In this document: positions 16,732-29,249 of the stretch, in pieces
How the letters are laid out: each line of letters opens with the position of its first letter
How positions within the stretch are numbered: position 1 is the stretch's first letter
DNA from: Opitutaceae bacterium
Lineage (GTDB): Bacteria; Verrucomicrobiota; Verrucomicrobiia; Opitutales; Opitutaceae
Assembly: GCA_018667915.1 (NCBI GenBank)
Contig: JABIRI010000153.1
Span: 1 to 62,871, forward strand
DNA length: 62,871 bases
Direction: 5' to 3'
Position numbers and translations under genes: made by a program
Notes under the pieces: generated by a model
Database searches by the model: none
The model's input: only the letters and a program-made list of their open reading frames with translations
Told to the model about the DNA's origin: nothing

Positions 16732-19215
16732 GTGAACATTTCCCGATCACTCACCCTCCCAGCGATCGGTCTGGCCATTGCCGCGACCGCTTTTATCGCC
16801 GGTCGTTGGACCGCCCCGTCAACCGCTGACACCCCGCCCGATTTCTCATTGGGGAACCTGCCTCCCGTGCCCGCGATAGCTTCGCCCAACGAACGCGTCG
16901 ATATCGTCAACAAGCCCGACATCGACGACGTCGCCCGAGACGTCGAAGAGGTCGCCCGCCTCGGTTACTGGCAGATGACCAAACAATGGGAGATCGTGAT
17001 CAACGCCCTCGATGCCCAGGACATGCCTCGGCTGCTCAGTATCCTCGCCAAATACCCGTGGACCAACGCCCGCACGCAACTGAACCATGCGTTCTACTCT
17101 CGGTGGTCCGAAATGGAACCCGCCCGAGCGCTGGCTCATGCCCAGCGCCAACCCGCCGGACGTCACCGCGACCAAGCCGTGCAGTCCGCACTCCACGGTT
17201 GGGCCTACACCGATGCCGATAGCATGCGCCAATGGGTGCGATCCCTCCCCGAGGGTGAGCTCAAGACCAAGGCCAACCAAGCACTCGCCCCCCACCTCTC
17301 CGCCCAAGATCCCGCCGCCGCCTTCGCTCAAGCCGTTTCTGATGGAGCCACCATGGATCACCAACGTATGATGGGCATCTACACCGCCTGGGCCTCAACG
17401 GATCCCCTCAAAGCTCTCGCTGAGATCAATCGGCAAACCGATGGCCAAGTGCGCCAGAGCGGTCGCATGCAAATCGCCGCCAACTGGGCTAATCACGATC
17501 CCGCCGCCGCCTGGGAATGGACGTCGGCGCAACCACTCAGCGAAAGCAGCACCCTCGCTCAAGTCATCCTCGGCGCATGGGCCCAACAAGACCCCACCAC
17601 CGCCGCCTCCAAAGTCACCCAGATGCCTGCCGGACAACTCCGCGCCAACGCCATCAACAGCGTAGCCAATACGTGGGCTCAACAAGATGGCATGGCCGCA
17701 CTCAGCTGGCTCAAGAGTCTGCCCCCGGGCTCTTCGCAAGCCTGGCTATTTGGCAATATCGTGAACCAGATTGCGACCAAGGACCCCGAATTGGCCCTGC
17801 AAGTCAGCCAGGATCTGCCCGCGGGGCAGGCCCGCACCAATGCGATGTCCAACGCCGTCCGTGCCATGGCGCAAACCGATCCTGACCGTGCTCTGATCGC
17901 GCTCGCCGAGTTCCCCGAGGGGCAACAGAAAACCCAAGCCATGCAACAGCTCTTGGGCACGCTCGCGCAAACCGACCCTGAGAAAGCGCTGCAATTCATC
18001 GACCAGATTCCCGCCGGCCCCCAAGGCAACCAAATCCTCGCTCAAACCATCGGGCAACTCGCGCTCAAGGACCCCGAAGCTGCGATCGAATACGTGCAAA
18101 CCATGCCCGAAGGCACGCGCCAATACCAGACGCTCAGTCAAATCGCATCCACGCTCGCTCAACAGGACCCCGAGCTCGCCGGCATCTTCGCTTCCGCCCT
18201 GCCCCGCGGCCAATACTTCAACCAAGCGACTCAACAGATCGCCTGGCAATACGCTCAACAAGATCCGGTTGGCGCCGCCCAATGGTTACAAACCCTCCCC
18301 AATGGCCAAGCCCGCAGCCAGGCGACCAACCAAGTCATCAGTAACCTTGCCACCTCCAACTTCGACCTCGCCCTCCAACTCGCTAACGGCCTGCCCAGCG
18401 GACAATCCCGCAACAATGCGATCGGCACCTTGGCGAACCAAATCGCGCAGACCGACCTCTCGCGTGCCATCCAGTGGGTCGACGAACTCCCGCCAGGACC
18501 GAGTCGCCAGCAAGCGGTGCAGAATGTCCTTAATCCTTGGATACAAGTCGATCTCGCCGGTGCCGTGGACTACGTGCTCAACGATCTTTCGGCCAACGAA
18601 CAATCCCAGGCTCTGCAACAAATCAGCTACCAACTCGCCCAATCCGATCCGGCCGCGGCCATGCGACTCGCCGACTCGCTGCCCTCCGGTAATAGCAAGA
18701 CCAATTTCATCAGCAACATGGTGTCCAGTCTCGCCAATACCTCCCCCCGCGATGCGGCCGACTACATCAACACCCTTTCCGACGAAAAATCCCGTCTGGC
18801 AGCGAGCCAAAATCTAGTAGGCCAATGGGCCAACACCGACCCCGTCGCCGCGGCCCAATGGCTGGAGACTCAACCCCAATCAAACGGCACCGCCCATCAC
18901 TACGGCAACCTCGCCGGAAACTGGGCCAATATGGATCCCGATGGCGCGACCCGATGGGTGACCTCACTCCCCAACGGCTCCACCCGCGATCAAGCGGCTC
19001 AAAGCCTGATCAACAACCTGATGCAACACGACATGAACTCGGCAATCGGACGTCTGGACCTGATCGAAAATCCGCAACAGCGCGTCCAAACCCAGCAACG
19101 GATTGCTCACCGTTGGTTGCGTAACGATCCGGCGGCCGCTCGCCAATGGATCCACTCCACCGACCTTCCCGCCCAGGTAAAGACCCAGCTCCTCCAATCC
19201 AACCCCGACGGGTAA
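16732..19215 (+). CDS. Exported or membrane-anchored repeat solenoid protein
   Basis: 827 residues starting at a GTG after CCTCCCC. An N-terminal hydrophobic segment (about 8-24) anchors or exports it. From about residue 80 to the end it is made of roughly twenty helical repeats of about 33 residues with the pattern A-x-x-W-A-Q-x-D-P-x-A-A-x-x-W-x-x-x-L-P-x-G-x-x-R-x-x-A. This is an alpha-solenoid built like TPR or HEAT arrays, but the repeat consensus is its own; similar proteins are common in Verrucomicrobia. Protein-protein binding in the cell envelope is likely; no catalytic motif is visible. The repeat is Gln/Asn-rich. It stands alone between tmRNA and the convergent thioredoxin-like gene. 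Confidence 0.7.
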   Translation: MNISRSLTLPAIGLAIAATAFIAGRWTAPSTADTPPDFSLGNLPPVPAIASPNERVDIVNKPDIDDVARDVEEVARLGYWQMTKQWEIVINALDAQDMPRLLSILAKYPWTNARTQLNHAFYSRWSEMEPARALAHAQRQPAGRHRDQAVQSALHGWAYTDADSMRQWVRSLPEGELKTKANQALAPHLSAQDPAAAFAQAVSDGATMDHQRMMGIYTAWASTDPLKALAEINRQTDGQVRQSGRMQIAANWANHDPAAAWEWTSAQPLSESSTLAQVILGAWAQQDPTTAASKVTQMPAGQLRANAINSVANTWAQQDGMAALSWLKSLPPGSSQAWLFGNIVNQIATKDPELALQVSQDLPAGQARTNAMSNAVRAMAQTDPDRALIALAEFPEGQQKTQAMQQLLGTLAQTDPEKALQFIDQIPAGPQGNQILAQTIGQLALKDPEAAIEYVQTMPEGTRQYQTLSQIASTLAQQDPELAGIFASALPRGQYFNQATQQIAWQYAQQDPVGAAQWLQTLPNGQARSQATNQVISNLATSNFDLALQLANGLPSGQSRNNAIGTLANQIAQTDLSRAIQWVDELPPGPSRQQAVQNVLNPWIQVDLAGAVDYVLNDLSANEQSQALQQISYQLAQSDPAAAMRLADSLPSGNSKTNFISNMVSSLANTSPRDAADYINTLSDEKSRLAASQNLVGQWANTDPVAAAQWLETQPQSNGTAHHYGNLAGNWANMDPDGATRWVTSLPNGSTRDQAAQSLINNLMQHDMNSAIGRLDLIENPQQRVQTQQRIAHRWLRNDPAAARQWIHSTDLPAQVKTQLLQSNPDG

Positions 19216-20474: not shown

Positions 20475-20882
20475 CTAAAAATCGGCGCCTGGTGGTGGAC
20501 CCTCACGGCCGCCTAGACGTCCCATACGATGGTCGGGAGGCGGTGGGAGGGCATCGACGAGTTCACGATCTGAGACCGTGCCGTCTCCGTCGGTGTCCAT
20601 GGACAAAAGAGTCGCCACAGCGCCATCAATTTCAGTGGCTGATATGACCCCATCTTGATCGCTGTCGAATAACATCAACAGGGGATGTCCACCCGGAGGG
20701 GGACCTCCCGGACCACGACCCGCTTTCGACATCGGCGAGGCGCCGCGCTCCCAATCAGCTTCAACCGGTGCACCACTGGGTTGAGCCCAAAGCGAAATTG
20801 AAAAAGCACCCAATACAAGCCCGAGCATACCCAGAGTCCCGGCCAGAGCGGGATGTGAGCGGTGGGAGGTGATCGCATTCAT
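20475..20882 (-). CDS. Secreted EF-hand protein
   Basis: 135 residues. A hydrophobic stretch (about 13-33) acts as signal or anchor. Two canonical EF-hand loops are intact: Asp73-Glu84 (DSDQDGVISATE) and Asp96-Glu107 (DTDGDGTVSDRE). Gly/Pro-rich segments flank them (GRGPGGPPPGGHP; GREGPPPG). It should bind calcium in the periplasm. It follows the histidine kinase gene by 70 bases and the kinase has a Pro/Arg/Gly-rich periplasmic part, so it might be a sensor accessory for the kinase; that is inference. Confidence 0.8.
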   Translation of the reverse strand: MNAITSHRSHPALAGTLGMLGLVLGAFSISLWAQPSGAPVEADWERGASPMSKAGRGPGGPPPGGHPLLMLFDSDQDGVISATEIDGAVATLLSMDTDGDGTVSDRELVDALPPPPDHRMGRLGGREGPPPGADF

Positions 20883-20952
20883 AATGCCAATAATCTACCC
20901 CATGCTTGTTCAGGGAATGTGTGCACGACCTCCTTTTATTGTTAGGAATTCG

Positions 20953-22584
20953 TTAAGATTGCCGAGAATGGTCCTGCCTAAGTTTGATCTTCGCGATAAA
21001 TCCTCGGGGATTCCCATTAGCAAACGATACTTTGCCGCCCATGGCCTCAATGGATTCCCGCACAATGGATAAACCGAGACCCGTGCCTCCCAGCTCCCGC
21101 GAACGAGCCGAATCTGGTCGGTAAAAAGGTTCTCCCAAACGGGCTAAGGCTTCGGGAGGGACTCCCGGACCATCGTCGGTGATATTCAAGTCCACCCAAT
21201 CCGGAGCACGGTGAACTGCGTCGATGGAAATCTTCGCATCAGCGCCCGCGTAGCGCGTGGCGTTGCGGACCAAGTTACTCAAAACCTTTACCAATAAGTT
21301 AGCGTCGCCGCCTACCACCACTTCGGCCTCAACATCGATCGATATATCCATCCCCACTGCTTCCCGGCGCATAGCCTGATCGACCGCGTCCCGTAAAACC
21401 ACCGGTTGAATCACCGCCACTCGAGCCTGCAAGCCTGCGCGGGTGAAGGCTAATAACTCGCCCAACAAATCGCTCATCTGCTGCACCTCTTCCTGCACAT
21501 CCTGCACCGAATCCTGGAGGTCATCCGGCACCCGATCCTGCAGGATTGCCGCCCCCACTTGTAATCGTCCGAGAGGTGAGCCTAATTCGTGCGCTACATC
21601 TGCCAGAAATTTTTTCTGGCCATTGACCAAGCGATCCAACCGTTCCGCCATACGATTGATGCTTTCGCCCAGCAGTCCCAACTCATCGCGTCTATTCGTC
21701 TCGACCCGGACCTTGAAACGCCCTTGGGCGATTTCGGTGGTCGCGTAGGTCGCCTGCCGCAGCGCTCGCGTGATTCCTACCACCAGTGGCAACCAGAATA
21801 TCACCGATAACACTACGACGGCGGCGACCGCGTAAACCGCCGGTCTTAAATCCAAGAGACCACCAAAGGACCAAACGGAATCTGAGATAGCGAAGAGTGC
21901 ACCAGGCATCGGCCGGCCTTCGGTATCAAATACCGGGGCACGCACGCCCACCCACCATCTGCCTTCACTTCGATCATATTCAAAAATTCGACCATCTCTG
22001 CCAGAGGGGCCGCCACCTTCCATTCCGCGAGGACCACCAGGTCCGGCATCTGGCGGTTGCCGACGGGGAGGACCATCGCCCGGCTGGCGATTTCTTGGGT
22101 CGGGTGGAGGACGACGATCATCCGCTCGACGAGGCGGCCCTGGTCCCGGTCCCGGTCTCGCCATTCTCGGGTCATCTGCTCGGGGGGGCGCGCCTACTCC
22201 ATCTCCCGCCTCATCATTTTGCAGGATGTAACTAACCTCGTCAGGAATCGGGATTGTCGCTCCACCTTTCAACTCTCCTTCATTGGAATAAAATGCGAAC
22301 GAGAGATCATAGACTTCTTCATATCGAGCGATCACGGATTCGAGATCTTCCCCATTGCGCACGGCGGAATTCATCGCGACTCCGACCAGTTGCAAACGAT
22401 CTCCCACGGGACCGCCAATCCATCCCTGCAACCCTCCTCGCCCTAGCAAGACTCCCACCGCAATCGCGGCGATAAAAAGAAAATTCAGCCCCAACCAAAT
22501 TCCGATTTTAACCGAAAGCGGCACCCGTAATCCGGGTGCAATCCGAAATCCTGCAGGATTCTGATTTTCAGTCTGATCATCCAT
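20953..22584 (-). CDS. Membrane sensor histidine kinase with Pro/Arg/Gly-rich periplasmic segment
   Basis: 543 residues. Two transmembrane helices (about 24-48 and 250-275) enclose a periplasmic sensor. Its middle (about 135-200) is low-complexity, repeating Pro, Arg, Asp and Gly (RADDRRPPPDPRNRQPGDGPP). A HAMP linker follows, then the H-box HELGSPLGRL with His332, and N, G1 and G2 boxes (NLVRNATRY, DDGPGVP, GGTGLGLS). It is EnvZ/CpxA-like in layout. The cognate regulator gene is 22 bases upstream. The signal is unknown; the low-complexity insert could bind metal or anions or simply be a spacer. Confidence 0.92.
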   Translation of the reverse strand: MDDQTENQNPAGFRIAPGLRVPLSVKIGIWLGLNFLFIAAIAVGVLLGRGGLQGWIGGPVGDRLQLVGVAMNSAVRNGEDLESVIARYEEVYDLSFAFYSNEGELKGGATIPIPDEVSYILQNDEAGDGVGAPPRADDPRMARPGPGPGPPRRADDRRPPPDPRNRQPGDGPPRRQPPDAGPGGPRGMEGGGPSGRDGRIFEYDRSEGRWWVGVRAPVFDTEGRPMPGALFAISDSVWSFGGLLDLRPAVYAVAAVVVLSVIFWLPLVVGITRALRQATYATTEIAQGRFKVRVETNRRDELGLLGESINRMAERLDRLVNGQKKFLADVAHELGSPLGRLQVGAAILQDRVPDDLQDSVQDVQEEVQQMSDLLGELLAFTRAGLQARVAVIQPVVLRDAVDQAMRREAVGMDISIDVEAEVVVGGDANLLVKVLSNLVRNATRYAGADAKISIDAVHRAPDWVDLNITDDGPGVPPEALARLGEPFYRPDSARSRELGGTGLGLSIVRESIEAMGGKVSFANGNPRGFIAKIKLRQDHSRQS

Positions 22585-22606: not shown

Positions 22607-23344
22607 TCAATGCGTGGAGGGATCGATGAAGAGGTAACCCACCGACCTGAGAGTCCGAATGTAGCGCGGGTTCCGCGCATCATCGCCAAGCTTCTTCCGC
22701 AACGCAGAGATGTGCACATCAATGGAACGATCAAACACGTCGTAGTTTCGCTCCCGCACTTCATCCAACAGGGATTCGCGCGACTTCACTCGACCTTTCG
22801 AATTGGCCAATCCTAAAAGCAGGTCAAACTCGACCGGCGTGAGATCGAGCACCTGATCACCCAACACCGCCGAGCGGGCTTCAGGCCGGATCCGTAATTC
22901 TTCAAAAACCAATTCCTCGGGCGGGGCTTCCTCCTTGGCGGTTCGGCTGCCTCGCCGCAATACCGCCCGCAATCGCGCGAGCAGCTCTCGGGTGGAAAAC
23001 GTCTTGGGCAGGTAATCATCGGCTCCAACTTCCAACCCTACTATCCGGTCCATTTCATCACCACGAGCGGTCAGCATGAGCACGGGAATATCTGAACTAC
23101 TACGAATGCGTTTGAGCACTTCAAATCCATCCATCCCCGGCAACATCACGTCCAGCAGCACGACATCCCATTCTTCCGCCAGTACGCGTTCAAGGCCGCT
23201 CGGACCATCATGCACGGCGGTCACATTAAAGCCCAGCGGGGCCAAATAGCTGGATACCAGACGACACAGTTTTTGGTCGTCATCGATCATCAAGAGTCGG
23301 GTCTGCACAGGATCGGAGTCGGGGGATGCGGCGGAAAGAGGCAT
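22607..23344 (-). CDS. OmpR-family response regulator
   Basis: 245 residues from ATG 23344 (a GTG at 23371 is in frame). The receiver domain has the acidic pair at about 21-22, phosphorylation site Asp65 in LLDVMLPGMDGF, and Lys in DDYLPKTFS. The C-terminal winged helix reads LTPVEFDLLLGLANSKGRV, then DRSIDVHISALRKKLGDD and IRTLRSVGYLF. It is closest in style to CpxR/OmpR. It is the first gene of the minus-strand run and is divergent from the YHYH gene. CTTAA repeats in the shared promoter are candidate binding sites, suggesting autoregulation plus control of the YHYH/MbnPH genes. Confidence 0.94.
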   Translation of the reverse strand: MPLSAASPDSDPVQTRLLMIDDDQKLCRLVSSYLAPLGFNVTAVHDGPSGLERVLAEEWDVVLLDVMLPGMDGFEVLKRIRSSSDIPVLMLTARGDEMDRIVGLEVGADDYLPKTFSTRELLARLRAVLRRGSRTAKEEAPPEELVFEELRIRPEARSAVLGDQVLDLTPVEFDLLLGLANSKGRVKSRESLLDEVRERNYDVFDRSIDVHISALRKKLGDDARNPRYIRTLRSVGYLFIDPSTH

Positions 23345-23394
23345 GAAGTCAATGGTGACTAAGCGAGTCACGCAACCGCCGTCTCCGCGACGAT

Positions 23395-23442
23395 CTTAAC
23401 CAAGTCTTAATAAATCTCCGAACAATATAAACATGGTCTTAA
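23395..23442 (+). promoter_or_regulatory. CTTAA direct repeats with a -10 box: likely response-regulator promoter
   Basis: CTTAA occurs at 23395, 23406 and 23438; the first two are 11 bases apart and the third is 32 further, so all lie near the same helix face. A -10-like TATAAA is at 23426-23431, and the second repeat ends 16 bases before it, where the -35 box should be. OmpR/PhoB-type regulators bind direct repeats of about 11 bp in that position. The regulator gene is divergent on the left and the YHYH gene starts at 23466. Confidence 0.55.
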
Positions 23443-23465: not shown

Positions 23466-26135
23466 ATGAAATCTATAACCCGCTCCAATCTGTTCACGTG
23501 CGTAGTTCTCGTCGTGGCAGTGATCCTCAGTGAGGCTGGCCTGAACGCCCAGAGTTCCGATCCCCGTTACACGAGTTGGCTCACTTCGCCTAGCGGAACC
23601 TACGCCCGTCTCTACGAGAGCACCAGCGACCTGACCGCCGGAAACTCCGTCACCACTTGGACCCGTGGGCAAGGCACCCAATCTACCCCGACCTACGCCG
23701 GCGTTACTGCGGTATCCTACTCCATTGATTGGGTCTACATCCTATCGTCCGGACTCGGTTACCACGTCATGGGCCCGTGGTATCTCAATGAGGCCAAGAC
23801 CAACAATTTTCCCAATTTTCCCGCCAACACCGACGTGCTCTACCGTATTCCTCGCAACCCCACTGTGCCGGCCAACAAAACGGCTACCGGAGGCGGCGCG
23901 GTTGGCTACTTCGTTGATGGAATCGCCATGTTCGATAACCGGGACACCTTTTCCTATATCAATTCAAGCGCCAGTGACGGCAGCCCCATGGGAGGCGGCC
24001 GCGGCGACGGAGTCTGGAATCGCGATGCTTACGTAAACGAGGGCGTCACGTTCGATCCCGCTCTGGCTCACCAGGCTGGAGCCCAATACCACTACCATGC
24101 CAACGCCCCGGCCCTCCGGTATCAATTGCAGGATCACGTGGACTACGATTCTTCCACGCGGACCTACTCCGAAAAATCCGGGACGCCAAGCCACTCCCCC
24201 ATTGTCGCCTGGGTAGCTGATGGTTATCCTGTGTATGGGCCATACGGATATAGCGATCCCAACAACGCCAGCAGCACCGTGCGCCGCATGATTTCGGGTT
24301 ACATCAAACGCGACGGCACCAGTGGCTCGACCAATCTCAACACCACAGGACGCACTACCCTGCCTACCTGGGCGGTCGAAGCCCAAGGCATCGGTCCCGC
24401 CCTCAGCTCTGGCCAAACCGGGCCCAACGTCAGCACCGCCTACCCGCTCGGACATTACCTCGAAGACTACGACTACCTTGGCGATCTCGGGCAAACCCTC
24501 GGCACCGATTTCGATTTGGATAAATACAATGGTCGTTTCTGTGTGACGCCCGACTTCCCGAGCGGCACCTACGCCTATTTCCTTTCCATCGAATCCGACG
24601 GCACCCCTAAATACCCTTACACCATGGGACGTTGGTATTACGGCAATCCCACGGGCGACTCGGTCAACAGCATCAGCGAAACCGTCACTCAACAGATTCA
24701 GGGGGCGCCGTCCGCCACCTTGATTGTCTCGGCCACCGCCGACGGGGCGAGCGTCGAGATCGGCTGGAACTCCGTGGAAGGCGCGACTTACCAGGTCGAA
24801 TCTTCTGCCGACGGTTCCGCATGGACCACCGTCGCCAACAGCGTCTCCAGCAGCGGCCTCACCACCACCCTCACTTCCGCCGAAGCCAACCAATACCGAG
24901 TGACCCTGACATCCATCAGCTCCTACGACACGGACGGCACGACCGGCACCGCCGTTGGCAGCACCGGCACTGTGGTTTGGTCGAGCCCTTCCACCGACAC
25001 TGCGCCCACCATTACCGCCCAACCGACCGCTATGTCTGTCGACGTAGGATCGAGTGCGAACTTCTCCGTCACCGCCACCGGCACAGATCCGCTGGCCTTT
25101 CAGTGGTCTCAAGATGGCGTGAACGTCAGTGGCGCCACCAACGCATCCTACACCATCGCCAGCGCCACCACCACCGATGCCGGCAACTACACTGTGACGA
25201 TTACGAACTCCCTCGGCTCGATCACCAGCAGTGCCGCCAACCTGACGGTAAACCCGGTCACCAACCCAGACCCTGACCCAGATCCCGAACCGGATCCGGA
25301 TCCCGACCCCGCAACCAACACGACACGCATCGCCAACCTGTCCACCCGCACTAAAGTTGGCGGCGAAGCAGGCACTCCCGTAATCGGTTTGGTCGTCGCC
25401 GGCACCGGCTCAAAATCCCTCATCGCCCGCGCCGTCGGCCCGACCTTGGGCGACTATGGCGTCACCGGATTCCTCACCGACCCCGAACTCAAACTTCAAC
25501 GCTCGTCCGACAACGTCGCCGTCGCCTACAACGACAACTGGCACCTCGCCCCCAACCGCGACGCCCTTGTCGCCAAGTCCACCCCCGTCGGGGCTTTCGC
25601 ACTCACCGCCAACAGCGCCGACGCCGCATGGTTCGGCAGCCTTCCCGCCGGCGGATACACCGCCCCAGTTCTCGACGATCGTGGCGAAGGCATCGTGCTC
25701 CTCGAGGTCTACGATGCCGGAACCGCATCCGACACCGCTCAGCTCTCCAACGCCTCAACTCGCGCTTGGGTAGGCACCGACGATTCCATTTTGATTACGG
25801 GCTTCGTCCTCGCTGGCACCGAATCACGCCAAGTCTTGCTCCGTGCCGTGGGACCAACGCTCGCTGATTTCGGCGTCACCGGCGTGCTCTCCGATCCTAC
25901 GGCCAGCCTCTACTCCGGCGGCACCTTGCTTCAAACCAACGACAACTGGAGCACCGCATCCAACACCGCCGCAATCACGAGCGCCGCCGCCACCGCGGGT
26001 GCGTTCACCATCCCATCCGGAAGCGCCGACTCGGCGCTCTTGGTCGATCTCGCACCCGGTGCCTACACCCTCCAGGTTTCGGGCGTCGGCGCGACGACCG
26101 GAACCGCGTTGGTCGAGATCTACTTGCTCGATTAA
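23466..26135 (+). CDS. Secreted YHYH-domain protein with Ig-like domain and verrucomicrobial C-terminal repeats
   Basis: 889 residues. A signal peptide (about 1-28) precedes a YHYH domain (about 35-420), with the naming motif at 208-211 (QYHYHA) and VAWVADGYPVYGPYGY after it. A fibronectin-like stretch (about 420-510) and an Ig-like domain (about 516-600, ITAQPTAMSVDVGSSANFSV) follow, then an Asp-Pro linker (NPDPDPDPEPDPDPDP) and two C-terminal repeats carrying ARAVGPTL and LRAVGPTL. YHYH proteins are secreted and uncharacterised; the His/Tyr motif suggests metal binding. The next gene, 22 bases on, is an MbnP-MbnH fusion, so the pair may handle copper or another redox metal outside the cytoplasm. 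Confidence 0.85.
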   Translation: MKSITRSNLFTCVVLVVAVILSEAGLNAQSSDPRYTSWLTSPSGTYARLYESTSDLTAGNSVTTWTRGQGTQSTPTYAGVTAVSYSIDWVYILSSGLGYHVMGPWYLNEAKTNNFPNFPANTDVLYRIPRNPTVPANKTATGGGAVGYFVDGIAMFDNRDTFSYINSSASDGSPMGGGRGDGVWNRDAYVNEGVTFDPALAHQAGAQYHYHANAPALRYQLQDHVDYDSSTRTYSEKSGTPSHSPIVAWVADGYPVYGPYGYSDPNNASSTVRRMISGYIKRDGTSGSTNLNTTGRTTLPTWAVEAQGIGPALSSGQTGPNVSTAYPLGHYLEDYDYLGDLGQTLGTDFDLDKYNGRFCVTPDFPSGTYAYFLSIESDGTPKYPYTMGRWYYGNPTGDSVNSISETVTQQIQGAPSATLIVSATADGASVEIGWNSVEGATYQVESSADGSAWTTVANSVSSSGLTTTLTSAEANQYRVTLTSISSYDTDGTTGTAVGSTGTVVWSSPSTDTAPTITAQPTAMSVDVGSSANFSVTATGTDPLAFQWSQDGVNVSGATNASYTIASATTTDAGNYTVTITNSLGSITSSAANLTVNPVTNPDPDPDPEPDPDPDPATNTTRIANLSTRTKVGGEAGTPVIGLVVAGTGSKSLIARAVGPTLGDYGVTGFLTDPELKLQRSSDNVAVAYNDNWHLAPNRDALVAKSTPVGAFALTANSADAAWFGSLPAGGYTAPVLDDRGEGIVLLEVYDAGTASDTAQLSNASTRAWVGTDDSILITGFVLAGTESRQVLLRAVGPTLADFGVTGVLSDPTASLYSGGTLLQTNDNWSTASNTAAITSAAATAGAFTIPSGSADSALLVDLAPGAYTLQVSGVGATTGTALVEIYLLD

Positions 26136-26157
26136 ACGAATCACGACGCCATCAACC

Positions 26158-27897
26158 ATGCTTCCCGTTCGCCGATTTGTTCTACTCGTTTTGAGTCTGA
26201 GCCTCACTGGCGGTGGAGCGGGCGCCGCCGATGTGGTGCTTGATCTCTCCTTCGGCTGGAACAAGTCGCCCATCGAGGTTCCTTCCCATTCCCTGCAATC
26301 GCCCGCCGACCAATCCCTGCGCTTCACCCGCGTTGCGGGGCTGATTTCGGAAATCGCTTTGGTCCGCTCCGACGGCAGCAGCGTGCACCTGCCGGGCCAA
26401 TACGGCTTTTTCTCCGCCGACGAAAATCGAAACAAAATTCGCCTGCACAACGTGCCCGACGGAGACTACACGGGCCTAAGCATGCGCATAGGAGTGCCGC
26501 CCAAAGTAAACCACGGGGACCCTGCGCAATGGCCCGCCGGTCACGCGCTCAACCCTTTGGTGAACAGTCTGCACTGGGGATGGACCGGAGGTTACGTTTT
26601 CCTCGCGGTTGAAGGAAAATTCGGTGCGTCACCCGAAACGTTGGATCAAGGGTTCTCCTTCCATCTCGCGACTGACGAACTTGCCATGCCCGTGCGTTTC
26701 AACCGCAAGTTCAGCATCACGGGCGATAGCCGCATCCTGCTGATGTTTGATCTCGCCGACTGGCTTGGCGACTTGGAGATGGATTCCGACAGGGGCACCA
26801 CCTCCTCCCATTCCCGCGAAAACGATCCTACCGCACGTGAACTCGCGGATCGCACCGGCCCCGCCTTTTGGTTCGGCAACGCCATCGCTGATTCCAGCAT
26901 CGCCGCTCAAATCGAAGAAACGCCCTCCACGACTTCCGCAACCGCGCTCCTCTTCGACATTCCCGCAGGATGGCCCCAGCCCGAGCTCCCCGCCGACAAT
27001 CTACCCACCGCCGCCGGCGTTGCTCTCGGCGAATCCCTTTTCCACGACCCCCGCCTATCAGGGAACGGCACACAATCTTGCTCCGAATGCCACCAAGCCA
27101 AACTCGCCTTTGGCGACAATATAGCCCTGAGTATCGGCATCAACGGCGACCTCGGTGAACGCAATTCCATGCCCCTGTTCAACCTCGCGTGGAATCCCAA
27201 CTTCGCGTGGGACGGATCCCAACCTCGTATCCGTGACCAAGCCATTGCAGCGATGACCAACCCCATCGAGATGGACGCCAATCCCGCCGTCGTCGTCGCC
27301 ACCCTCGAAACCGACGAGACCGTCCGCGCCGCCTTCGCTACCGCATTTGGTGACGACGAAATCACCACCATTCGCATCGGACGCGCCCTTGAACAATTCC
27401 TCCTTACCCTAGTTTCCTCCGACTCTAAATTCGATCAGATGGTCGCCGGCCATACCGAACTCACGGCTCAGGAGACCCGTGGCATGGAGCTGTTCAATAC
27501 CGAGTTTGATCCCCGCCAACGCCAATTCGGCGCCGACTGTTTTCACTGCCACGGCGGGTCACTTTTTACCGATTTTGCCGCCAAAAACAACGGACTCGAT
27601 TTGCGCTCCATCGACGCGGGCCGGGCCAAAGTAACGGGCGAGCAATCCGATTATGGAAAATTCAAAACACCCTCCCTCCGCAATGTCGCCCTCACCGCGC
27701 CCTATATGCACGACGGACGTTTCGATACCCTGGAAGACGTGATGAATCACTACGTCGGCGGCGTGCAGCGACCCGACCAACTCGACCCCAATCTCGCCAA
27801 ACACCCCGGCCCCGGTGTGCCCCTCAGCCTTGAAGACCGCGACGCCCTGATCGCATTTCTAAAAACCCTCACCGATCCTAAATTCGCCGCCAACTAG
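26158..27897 (+). CDS. MbnP-like domain fused to an MbnH-like di-haem cytochrome c peroxidase
   Basis: 579 residues. After a signal peptide (about 1-23) comes an MbnP-like domain (about 24-260), recognised by LDLSFGW, ISEIALVRSDGS, and NPLVNSLHWGWTGGYVFLAVEG near 137-155. A di-haem peroxidase domain follows, with haem sites CSECH at 308-312 and CFHCH at 461-465 and the block TPSLRNVALTAPYMHDGRF. In characterised systems MbnH is a separate protein that oxidises a Trp of MbnP to kynurenine to make a copper site. Here both parts are one chain, which is unusual. The open frame extends upstream to 25843, but that segment lacks homology and overlaps the YHYH gene; the ATG precedes a clear signal peptide. 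Confidence 0.85.
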   Translation: MLPVRRFVLLVLSLSLTGGGAGAADVVLDLSFGWNKSPIEVPSHSLQSPADQSLRFTRVAGLISEIALVRSDGSSVHLPGQYGFFSADENRNKIRLHNVPDGDYTGLSMRIGVPPKVNHGDPAQWPAGHALNPLVNSLHWGWTGGYVFLAVEGKFGASPETLDQGFSFHLATDELAMPVRFNRKFSITGDSRILLMFDLADWLGDLEMDSDRGTTSSHSRENDPTARELADRTGPAFWFGNAIADSSIAAQIEETPSTTSATALLFDIPAGWPQPELPADNLPTAAGVALGESLFHDPRLSGNGTQSCSECHQAKLAFGDNIALSIGINGDLGERNSMPLFNLAWNPNFAWDGSQPRIRDQAIAAMTNPIEMDANPAVVVATLETDETVRAAFATAFGDDEITTIRIGRALEQFLLTLVSSDSKFDQMVAGHTELTAQETRGMELFNTEFDPRQRQFGADCFHCHGGSLFTDFAAKNNGLDLRSIDAGRAKVTGEQSDYGKFKTPSLRNVALTAPYMHDGRFDTLEDVMNHYVGGVQRPDQLDPNLAKHPGPGVPLSLEDRDALIAFLKTLTDPKFAAN

Positions 27898-27953
27898 TCT
27901 TTCCAGTTTCTTACCATTTTTCAGCCCTCACCGCTCCACCAACTTTACCCTTC

Positions 27954-28016
27954 CTTAACAATTCCGCCCAACCCGCTTAATCATCGCTTAACCCATCGCG
28001 CTTAAGCTCTCCTTAG
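27954..28016 (+). repeat. Array of phased CTTAA repeats
   Basis: CTTAA starts at 27954, 27976, 27987 and 28001, and CTTAG at 28012. The intervals are 22, 11, 14 and 11 bases, so most copies fall on one helix face. The same word occurs in the promoter of the YHYH gene at 23395-23442. The array lies in the 276-base gap after the MbnPH fusion gene and 45 bases before a strong terminator. It may be a second binding region for the same response regulator. Confidence 0.5.
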
Positions 28017-28060: not shown

Positions 28061-28098
28061 CCCGCCTGCGTGATGGCCCTCTCGCAGGCGGGTTTTTT
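28061..28098 (+). terminator. Rho-independent terminator
   Basis: A perfect 10-bp stem CCCGCCTGCG/CGCAGGCGGG (28061-28070 with 28083-28092) is followed by six T residues. It could end the YHYH-MbnPH transcript, although it lies 164 bases after the stop, or a short RNA starting after the CTTAA array. Confidence 0.93.
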
Positions 28099-28173: not shown

Positions 28174-28395
28174 ATGCGAAAAGTGAAACTCTACGGCATC
28201 CTAGCCGCCGTTCTACTCGCGGCTGTTGTCATCATGCAGAATACGACAGTCGTAGAAACGAAGGTCTTGTTCATGACTATAGCGATGCCCCGGGCCGCCT
28301 TACTGGCCCTCACCTTCGGACTCGGCATCGTAATCGGCGTCACGATTCCCTTTATCTGGAGCCGCAAAAAAGAAAAATCCGCTCCCCTCGAATGA
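28174..28395 (+). CDS. Small LapA-domain (DUF1049-like) membrane protein
   Basis: 73 residues from ATG 28174. Two transmembrane helices (about 6-20 and 38-62) are separated by NTTVVETKVLFMTIAMPRAAL, and the protein ends in WSRKKEKS. This arrangement matches the LapA family, involved in lipopolysaccharide assembly in Enterobacteria, but similar short proteins occur widely with unknown roles. A longer frame from 28099 is open but lacks homology. The neighbours give no clear context. Confidence 0.7.
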   Translation: MRKVKLYGILAAVLLAAVVIMQNTTVVETKVLFMTIAMPRAALLALTFGLGIVIGVTIPFIWSRKKEKSAPLE

Positions 28396-28511
28396 AACGG
28401 AACCCGACCTCGCCTCATTGGGTCAAGTTACCCTGAACCGACCCGATCTCTTCCGCAGCGAAATCACTATTTGATTCGTCTCGCAACCTTACCGCTCAAT
28501 ATTCTTTGACC

Positions 28512-29249
28512 ATGACCGCAACGCCCTTCCTTTCCCGCCGAGTCGGTCTACTTCTATGCTGTGTGTTGGTGGCGATATCCGCCCTCGCGGAAACCACCCC
28601 CATATCCGTGCAGGGTTCACTCGATGCCAGGATTCCCGCCAACCTTCGATCCCTGCAAATCGATCATCCCTATGTGGATTTCAAAATCGATCTTGGAGCC
28701 GACGGCACCCTGTTCGACGCCATGGCGATTGAGTCCAATCACCGCGACCTGTTGCCCGCCGCCCACAAGGTGCTCGAGTCGGTGACTTTCGTCCCCGCCA
28801 CAAAGGACGGCCAATCGATCCGCCAGCGGGCGAATGTCCGCGTCAGATTTTACGACCCCAGCCAGGAAGCGTGGCGCAGCGGGGCCAGTATGATGCCCTT
28901 CGCCGACACCCCCTCCGAAGCCGCCCGACGCCGGATCTATTCAAACTCGGCCAGTAATTTTTTCTTCGAACTCAGCACCAAGGAGGAGCTCGACAGCCCG
29001 CTCACTCAGCTCCTCACCACCCGTCGTATTTACAGCTCACAAAACGGCGTCAGCACCAAGGGTAAATGCCTGGTGGAATTCTACGTCGGCCCCAACGGCC
29101 GCGCCCGCTTTCCCCGCGCGATCGAAAGCGACAGCGACGACGTCGCCCTAAGCGCCGCCCTGACCTTGCTCAAAACCCGTTTCGAACCACCCCGCAAAAA
29201 CGGTCAGCCGACCTACGTGAAGATCCAACAGGAATTCGAGTTTAGGTAA
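28512..29249 (+). CDS. Secreted TonB C-terminal-like protein
   Basis: 245 residues with a signal peptide (about 1-23, ending SALAE). Two halves (about 25-115 and 150-245) resemble the TonB C-terminal fold: DLGADGTLFDAMAIESNHRDLLPAAHKVLESVTFVPA, split here only as an outline, and VEFYVGPNGRARFPRAIES followed by ALSAALTLLKTRFEPPRKNG. There is no Pro-rich TonB spacer or membrane anchor, so it is a periplasmic relative rather than an energy transducer. The ATG at 28512 is preferred over the TTG at 28506. Confidence 0.65.
   Translation: MTATPFLSRRVGLLLCCVLVAISALAETTPISVQGSLDARIPANLRSLQIDHPYVDFKIDLGADGTLFDAMAIESNHRDLLPAAHKVLESVTFVPATKDGQSIRQRANVRVRFYDPSQEAWRSGASMMPFADTPSEAARRRIYSNSASNFFFELSTKEELDSPLTQLLTTRRIYSSQNGVSTKGKCLVEFYVGPNGRARFPRAIESDSDDVALSAALTLLKTRFEPPRKNGQPTYVKIQQEFEFR

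Follow-up and report, generated by a model that had tools for sequence, protein, structure and literature searches.

Two proteins of Methylosinus trichosporium, MbnP and the di-haem protein MbnH (structures 7l6g and 6e1c), are the closest described relatives of the system reported here. A 2021 study of MbnP in PNAS reportedly describes Cu(I) held by a His, a Met, a solvent ligand and a kynurenine derived from the first Trp of a WxW motif. MauG shares the di-haem fold and acts in trans on methylamine dehydrogenase. In methanotrophs, the systems CorA/CorB and MopE/SACCP each consist of two separate proteins; the excerpt of PMC3912023 describes copper in CorA as bound by two His and water, with a kynurenine at second-sphere distance, and a di-haem peroxidase-like partner. 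Here we describe a locus in which the MbnP-like and MbnH-like parts form one chain, encoded directly after a gene for a YHYH protein. It lies on a 62,871-nucleotide contig (JABIRI010000153.1, our contig C148, hereafter the window) of an Opitutaceae bacterium whose draft genome comprises 4.28 Mb in 361 contigs.

The fusion protein

The fusion, its functional residues and the YHYH gene are placed as follows.

26158..27897, forward strand: MbnP-MbnH single-chain fusion gene, 579 amino acids, signal-peptide-like N-terminus
26230..26790, forward strand: MbnP domain, residues 25-211
26572..26583, forward strand: H139-W140-G-W142 motif; W140, the first Trp of WxW, is the predicted kynurenine site
26662..26664, forward strand: His169, predicted copper ligand, invariant in fused and split MbnP
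26809..26811, forward strand: His218, predicted copper ligand, in the column of the Met of the split MbnP C-M motif
27013..27897, forward strand: MauG/MbnH-type di-haem domain, residues 286-579
27079..27093, forward strand: haem site 1, C308SECH312
27538..27552, forward strand: haem site 2, C461FHCH465
27751..27753, forward strand: Tyr532, predicted axial ligand of haem 2
23466..26135, forward strand: YHYH protein gene, 889 amino acids (PF14240, E 3.5e-35)
23841..24593, forward strand: YHYH domain (PF14240, 122.2-124.7 bits against a cut-off of 25)

The open reading frame (ORF) of the fusion is listed from 25843; its likely start is the ATG at 26158, which gives a signal peptide, and its stop is at 27897. 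Both domains are in the same frame, with no stop between them. The first matches PF20243 (E 3.2e-28, 99.4 bits against a cut-off of 27), and a structural model aligns to MbnP 7l6g (VIA alignment, Z 17.7, root-mean-square deviation (rmsd) 3.0, 212 residues). The second matches CCP_MauG (PF03150; residues 286-433, E 3.8e-51, 174.1 bits), contains two CxxCH motifs and aligns to MbnH 6e1c (Z 32.5, rmsd 2.0, 304 residues) and to MauG (Z about 28, rmsd 2.4, 284 aligned). The initial annotation of this locus had proposed an MbnP-like domain with a Trp motif and a MauG/MbnH-like peroxidase, with haem sites at 308 and 461, in a single polypeptide immediately preceded by a YHYH gene. All of this is borne out, down to the coordinates and motifs; the YHYH gene ends 22 bases upstream of the fusion start, on the same strand.

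The identification of the two halves as MbnP and MbnH holds for family and fold, but the protein is not a plain join of the canonical pair. Both NCBIfam equivalogs were tried and rejected, as TIGR04052 (MbnP) scores 41.6 bits against a cut-off of 140 and TIGR04039 (MbnH) 227.2 bits against 362.85; moreover, Cys columns of split MbnP are gone and a Met has become a His. The fusion is thus a variant of the MbnP/MbnH kind and an equivalog of neither. It shares with the Methylosinus proteins both folds, the order of the split pair, the WxW Trp, the H169 column, and the Tyr and Trp columns of the di-haem part.

Distribution of the fusion

The single-chain fusion is the usual form in Verrucomicrobiota. 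A Pfam profile survey found an MbnP match in 22 of 387 genomes of this phylum, and among the 34 surveyed loci 32 have HWxW and two CxxCH motifs in one frame (the script accepted only frames with W-x-W, though the survey itself used the Pfam profile). The exceptions are a 664-codon frame that the script did not resolve (L036) and a 153-codon frame (L037). One member of this set is the window itself (L006), and two are pieces of one interrupted gene (L032 and L041, genome G156), in which the fusion runs over two frames through a frameshift or sequencing error; the neighbouring YHYH match in that genome also has an internal stop.

A second, overlapping set was built from a scan of named genomes. 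It consists of the best 80 of 423 confirmed relatives, ranked by likeness to the window, plus eight neighbourhoods that show loci of the first set in a wider view, minus two duplicates (L043, L045). Of these 86 distinct loci, 84 are fused and the other two (L048, L115) are cut by a contig end; because of the ranking, this count and those given below for the 86 loci, the 105 aligned fusions and the repeat lean to near relatives. A chance or assembly join was considered and rejected on the strength of these single-frame fusions. The closest named relatives, among the best 80, are Verrucomicrobia and Opitutae metagenome-assembled genomes (MAGs). Fusions also occur outside Verrucomicrobiota, in MAGs of Fimbriimonadia (L072), Planctomycetota (L075) and Phycisphaeraceae (L106). 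In a survey of Planctomycetota, the only MbnP genome of 294 was the one at the survey centre.

Although 355 plasmid records match the fusion, none covers more than 80% of the query. The six plasmid loci that were read contain a split pair instead, with mbnP directly followed by mbnH, so the fusion keeps the gene order of split pairs. At five of these loci (L128-L132) the MbnH di-haem proteins are annotated 'methanobactin export MATE transporter MbnM'; this is a naming error, since the two scanned proteins score 494 and 559 bits for MbnH.

Among the literature matches listed, no title concerns an MbnP-MbnH fusion or YHYH with MbnP, although these matches leave subscription literature mostly uncovered and so do not establish absence from print. 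In the available part of PMC3621798, the words 'fusion' and 'fused' occur 0 times.

Conserved residues and structural model

When five fused proteins were aligned with six split ones, P100, W140, W142, G145, H169 and D198 were invariant (11/11). The Trp motif placed in the MbnP-like domain by the initial annotation is therefore present and conserved, and aligns with the WxW of split MbnP. Common to the split proteins are Cys columns and a C-M motif, which reads C-M-S in five of them and C-M-G in the sixth. None of the Cys columns is kept in the fused proteins, and the Met column holds Met in 6/6 split proteins and His (His218) in 5/5 fused proteins. There is no Cys at all in the first domain of the window protein, unlike 7l6g, which carries the name 'four-Cys motif protein'; some relatives (e.g., L035) have Cys at other positions. 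When 108 fusion sequences were reduced to 105 distinct ones, H169 and H218 were each conserved in 105/105. From conservation in the fused/split alignment we infer which Met and His bind copper in MbnP. Given the replacement of the Met column by an invariant His218, we predict a copper site of two His and a kynurenine, as in CorA, on an MbnP fold, with His169, His218 and Trp140 (as kynurenine) as the ligand set. A PDB sequence search to E 10 returned only 7l6g, and no CorA or MopE chain.

In the di-haem half, Tyr532 aligns with a Tyr of MbnH 6e1c. Three fused proteins and six split ones all have it, as do 101/101 fusion rows that reach the column, which we take to be that of the axial ligand of haem 2 in the MauG/MbnH type. 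Classical cytochrome c peroxidases have a Met as haem ligand at this place. Trp351, Gln361 and Glu371 are invariant in the 103 fusion rows that reach them. With Tyr532, these residues presumably correspond to Tyr294, Trp93, Gln103 and Glu113 of MauG. One position differs: in MauG, Trp199 stands two residues ahead of the second haem motif, and by our matching of the numbering it is Ala459 here (Ala in 96 and Gly in 5 of 101 rows).

The AlphaFold2 model of the fusion, built from 30 sequences, has a predicted local distance difference test score (pLDDT) of 83.9 and a predicted template modelling score (pTM) of 0.80; for a two-domain chain, the latter suggests a defined arrangement of the domains. 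Blocks holding HWGW have mean pLDDT of 82 and 79. Of 50 listed structural rows, 20, all of them bacterial cytochrome c peroxidases, begin at model residue 138-142, in the HWGW loop, and match this residue to one close to the beginning of the peroxidase chain. On the di-haem domain, the loop thus seems to sit where peroxidases have their N-terminus, a segment that in those enzymes lies against the second-haem domain.

Genomic partners

The 889-residue YHYH protein carries its YHYH motif at residues 208-211, an immunoglobulin-like domain at 514-594 and, by eye, a signal peptide and C-terminal repeats. Across 63 sequences (rows below 85% coverage or 100 bits were excluded), H202, H209, H211, H243 and several Asp of the domain are invariant, as are the aromatic residues W155, Y228, Y231 and Y342 (model numbering). 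The domain shares the YHYH motif and a His triad, a predicted metal site, with PF14240 proteins of phages and bacteria (excerpt of PMC7824862), for which a Zn site and a hydrolase function were predicted in phages. The family occurs in phages according to the same source, and in diatoms according to the excerpt of PMC11992049. The domain model is confident (pLDDT 86.2, pTM 0.85). A Foldseek search of the PDB found nothing with an E value of 0.001 or lower, and the best VIA alignment reached Z 3.0 over 57 residues, which does not in itself show the fold to be new; a few weak matches to propeller blades (Z 2.1-2.7) were treated as noise. No YHYH match was found on plasmids.

Co-occurrence of YHYH and MbnP genes, the check that had been proposed for their association, is clear. 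YHYH was identified in 48 of 387 Verrucomicrobiota genomes, and all 22 MbnP genomes have it (Fisher 6.6e-23, a value that relatedness inflates); in 17 of the 22 the genes are within 6 kb (places were copied by hand from two surveys). At the 86 loci, a YHYH gene lies on the fusion strand in 60, within 1.5 kb in 57 and within 300 bases in 44, measured on stop-to-stop frames. Culturable relatives that have both genes include Haloferula rosea (L095) and Rubritalea marina (L097). A clustering of neighbours consisted mostly of shadow frames and was used only to see the recurrence of YHYH and two-component genes. YHYH proteins near MbnP score 78-155 bits (with one exception, 231), a lower range that also includes unlinked copies, whereas 27 of the 28 places scoring at least 175 bits are not near MbnP. 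A second, higher-scoring YHYH gene is present in the Opitutaceae genome itself, on a 4.6 kb contig (C22; L126, 2206-3582), where it adjoins an ORF that reads like a sulfatase.

In six loci (L013, L015, L099, L113, L118 and L105, the last cut by a contig end), a giant gene directly downstream of the fusion encodes a protein whose N-terminal domain is of the galactose-oxidase (copper radical oxidase) type. The N-terminal domain of the L013 protein matches 9g8h at E 4.3e-92, and the other five were found by likeness to it. Columns with Cys (MFC) and Tyr (RWY) are kept in 6/6 and those with Tyr-His (RNYHS) and His (TH) in 5/5, L105 being cut; we take these to be the copper and cofactor residues of galactose oxidase. 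This protein and YHYH occur together in 0 of 86 loci, although the genome of L013 (G019) has YHYH matches on another contig. The giant proteins of L013 (8907-16076), L015, L099, L113 and L118 themselves contain two CxxCH motifs, which means that these proteins, too, combine a copper part with a haem part. In a further locus (L082), the gene for a CusA/CzcA-family pump overlaps the fusion frame. Independent evidence that the module has to do with copper comes mainly from the oxidase partner and this pump. The module is also more widespread and more coherent than is apparent from the window alone.

A choice-of-anchor B family protein adjoins the fusion in L012 (4571-8154) and a split pair in Pseudoalteromonas (L133, 1-1418). 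This family is a possible third partner class.

Proposed function and alternatives

We propose, with about an even chance of being right, that the fusion is a self-maturing Cu(I) protein in a single chain, dedicated to a secreted protein, itself probably a copper enzyme. In the exported chain, the copper domain would lie against the chain's own MauG-type di-haem domain, as the model indirectly suggests. By analogy with MauG and MbnH, the di-haem domain would use peroxide and store its oxidising power. Acting in cis or within a dimer, it may then convert Trp140 of HWxW into kynurenine, so that, unlike in MauG, the presumed substrate is part of the same chain. Kyn140, His169 and His218 would hold Cu(I), as the Met-to-His replacement implies. 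Because the module comes with either YHYH or a galactose-oxidase-type oxidase, partners that set this kind of fusion apart from MbnP/MbnH, the chain most likely would supply or keep copper for that secreted protein. The fusion-linked YHYH proteins are probably cell-surface metal enzymes. A bolder version, which we hold only tentatively and consider somewhat doubtful, is that they are unrecognised secreted copper enzymes, interchangeable with the galactose-oxidase type, and that the fusions are self-maturing two-His-kynurenine copper donors. If the proposal is correct, a single chain with both substrate and maturase offers a simple system for studying how kynurenine forms, nature has supplied a Met-to-His variant of the MbnP copper site, and a widespread YHYH family of unknown function gains a testable metal and a testable helper. 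As either YHYH or galactose oxidase stands beside the fusion, and both in no locus, the copper hypothesis is directly checkable.

The same pairing could mean that the di-haem domain modifies the partner rather than its own chain: the MbnP-like part would dock a YHYH protein, whose Tyr or Trp would be oxidised in the manner of MauG and methylamine dehydrogenase. The frequency of one secreted partner, the MauG-type Tyr532 in place of a peroxidase-type ligand and the invariant W155, Y228, Y231 and Y342 of YHYH are all consistent with this. We nevertheless consider it unlikely, because fusions of one kind are found with two partners unrelated to each other and because the WxW Trp and H169, both kept from split MbnP, would be left without a role. 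Galactose oxidase, moreover, forms its cofactor by itself with copper. That enzyme also produces hydrogen peroxide, and the fold of the di-haem domain is common to cytochrome c peroxidases, so the domain might simply consume peroxide made by the partner oxidase while the MbnP-like part serves for attachment. The oxidase partner in 6 of 86 loci fits such a role. The Tyr that replaces the classical Met ligand in the alignment argues against it, as does conservation of WxW, His169 and His218, and we regard it as quite improbable.

A surface copper-uptake device like CorA/MopE, with YHYH as an anchor or receptor and no enzyme function, is very unlikely in our judgement, despite the resemblance to CorA, which according to the excerpt of PMC3912023 is copper-repressed, surface-bound, provided with two His and a kynurenine, and co-transcribed with a gene for a di-haem peroxidase-like protein. 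In some loci the partner contains a whole copper radical oxidase domain, and no TonB-dependent receptor was found among the genes scanned beside the window fusion (a TonB-C-domain protein is encoded at 28506-29249).

Several observations weigh against a self-maturing copper protein dedicated to a partner. The HWxW motif is present in 105/105 distinct fusions, a conservation that is partly built in, as the motif was the search pattern and extraction anchor. The copper ligand set is uncertain because H129 (102/105) and H139 (105/105) are also fusion-specific, both being absent from split proteins. Sequence likeness of the MbnP half to solved MbnP 7l6g is weak (E 0.089, PDB sequence search). The structural rows of MauG, MbnH, 3o5c, 9qdt, BthA and YhjA do not begin at the HWGW loop, and these alignments report only the first and last aligned residues. 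YHYH and MbnP are apart in 5 of 22 genomes (G019, G186, G232, G235, G244), and 3 of the 17 near pairs are on opposite strands (G279, G350, G418), so YHYH and the fusion are not always one operon. There are 26 YHYH genomes, of 48, without MbnP, and the Planctomycetota genome (L075) has the fusion without YHYH. Of the 86 loci, 26 lack a YHYH gene at threshold: 5 with less than 700 bases upstream, 6 with the galactose-oxidase protein, 13 with other or unseen neighbours, 1 with an apparent YHYH end fragment at a contig edge (L108) and 1 with a 32-bit match (L059).

Regulation

Genes for a two-component system precede the YHYH gene, and a direct repeat lies between the regulator and YHYH genes.

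23395..23410, forward strand: CTTAA-N6-CTTAA direct repeat with an 11-base period, predicted operator
22607..23371, reverse strand: OmpR-family response regulator gene, divergent from YHYH, kept in part of the relatives
20953..22584, reverse strand: sensor histidine kinase gene, upstream of YHYH, present in part of the relatives

In the window, five copies of the repeat occur at no more than one mismatch, against 0.82 expected, and 1 of 100 shuffles reaches five. The 86 loci, 1.18 Mb in all, contain 17 exact copies, against 0 or 1 in each of five Markov shuffles. Sixteen of these, in 16 loci, stand at most 150 bases from the 5' end of a frame for YHYH, the regulator or the fusion, and such zones make up 4.4% of bases; this statistic is generous because the pattern was taken from the window first and the loci are related. 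The repeat occupies the gap between regulator and fusion in several Opitutae and that between regulator and YHYH in others. An 11-base period fits an OmpR-family regulator. Close regulator homologues (at least 300 bits) were identified in 29 loci, 11 with and 18 without an exact repeat, and five loci have the exact repeat without such a homologue.

We infer that the OmpR-type two-component system would bind the repeat, whose conservation is observed, and thereby control the module. The grouping of the adjacent regulator with YHYH and the fusion into a three-part metal system, suggested initially, is supported in part: the shared direct repeat favours it, but a regulator gene is present in only 38 of 86 loci and a kinase gene in 27.

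Just after the fusion, the stretch 27943-28016 contains three repeat copies (one exact, two with one mismatch). It is followed by a small ORF near 28174-28395, which to us reads like a LapA-type membrane protein. A one-mismatch copy at 20942-20957, about 60 bases upstream of the EF-hand gene that adjoins the kinase gene, suggests that this gene is part of the same regulon.

Other features of the window

20475..20882, reverse strand: EF-hand protein gene
28061..28098, forward strand: terminator-like hairpin after the fusion, recognised by reading the sequence (10 bp stem, 12-base loop, T6)

The loop of the hairpin exceeds the limit of our terminator scan, so it is not in the scan's list; that scan found 4 terminators against 4.6 expected, and a promoter scan found 1 against 1.3 expected. 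Farther upstream, at 16732-19215, the window encodes an exported protein of 827 residues, apparently built from repeats some 30 residues long (DPxxAxxWLxxLPxGxxRxxA type).

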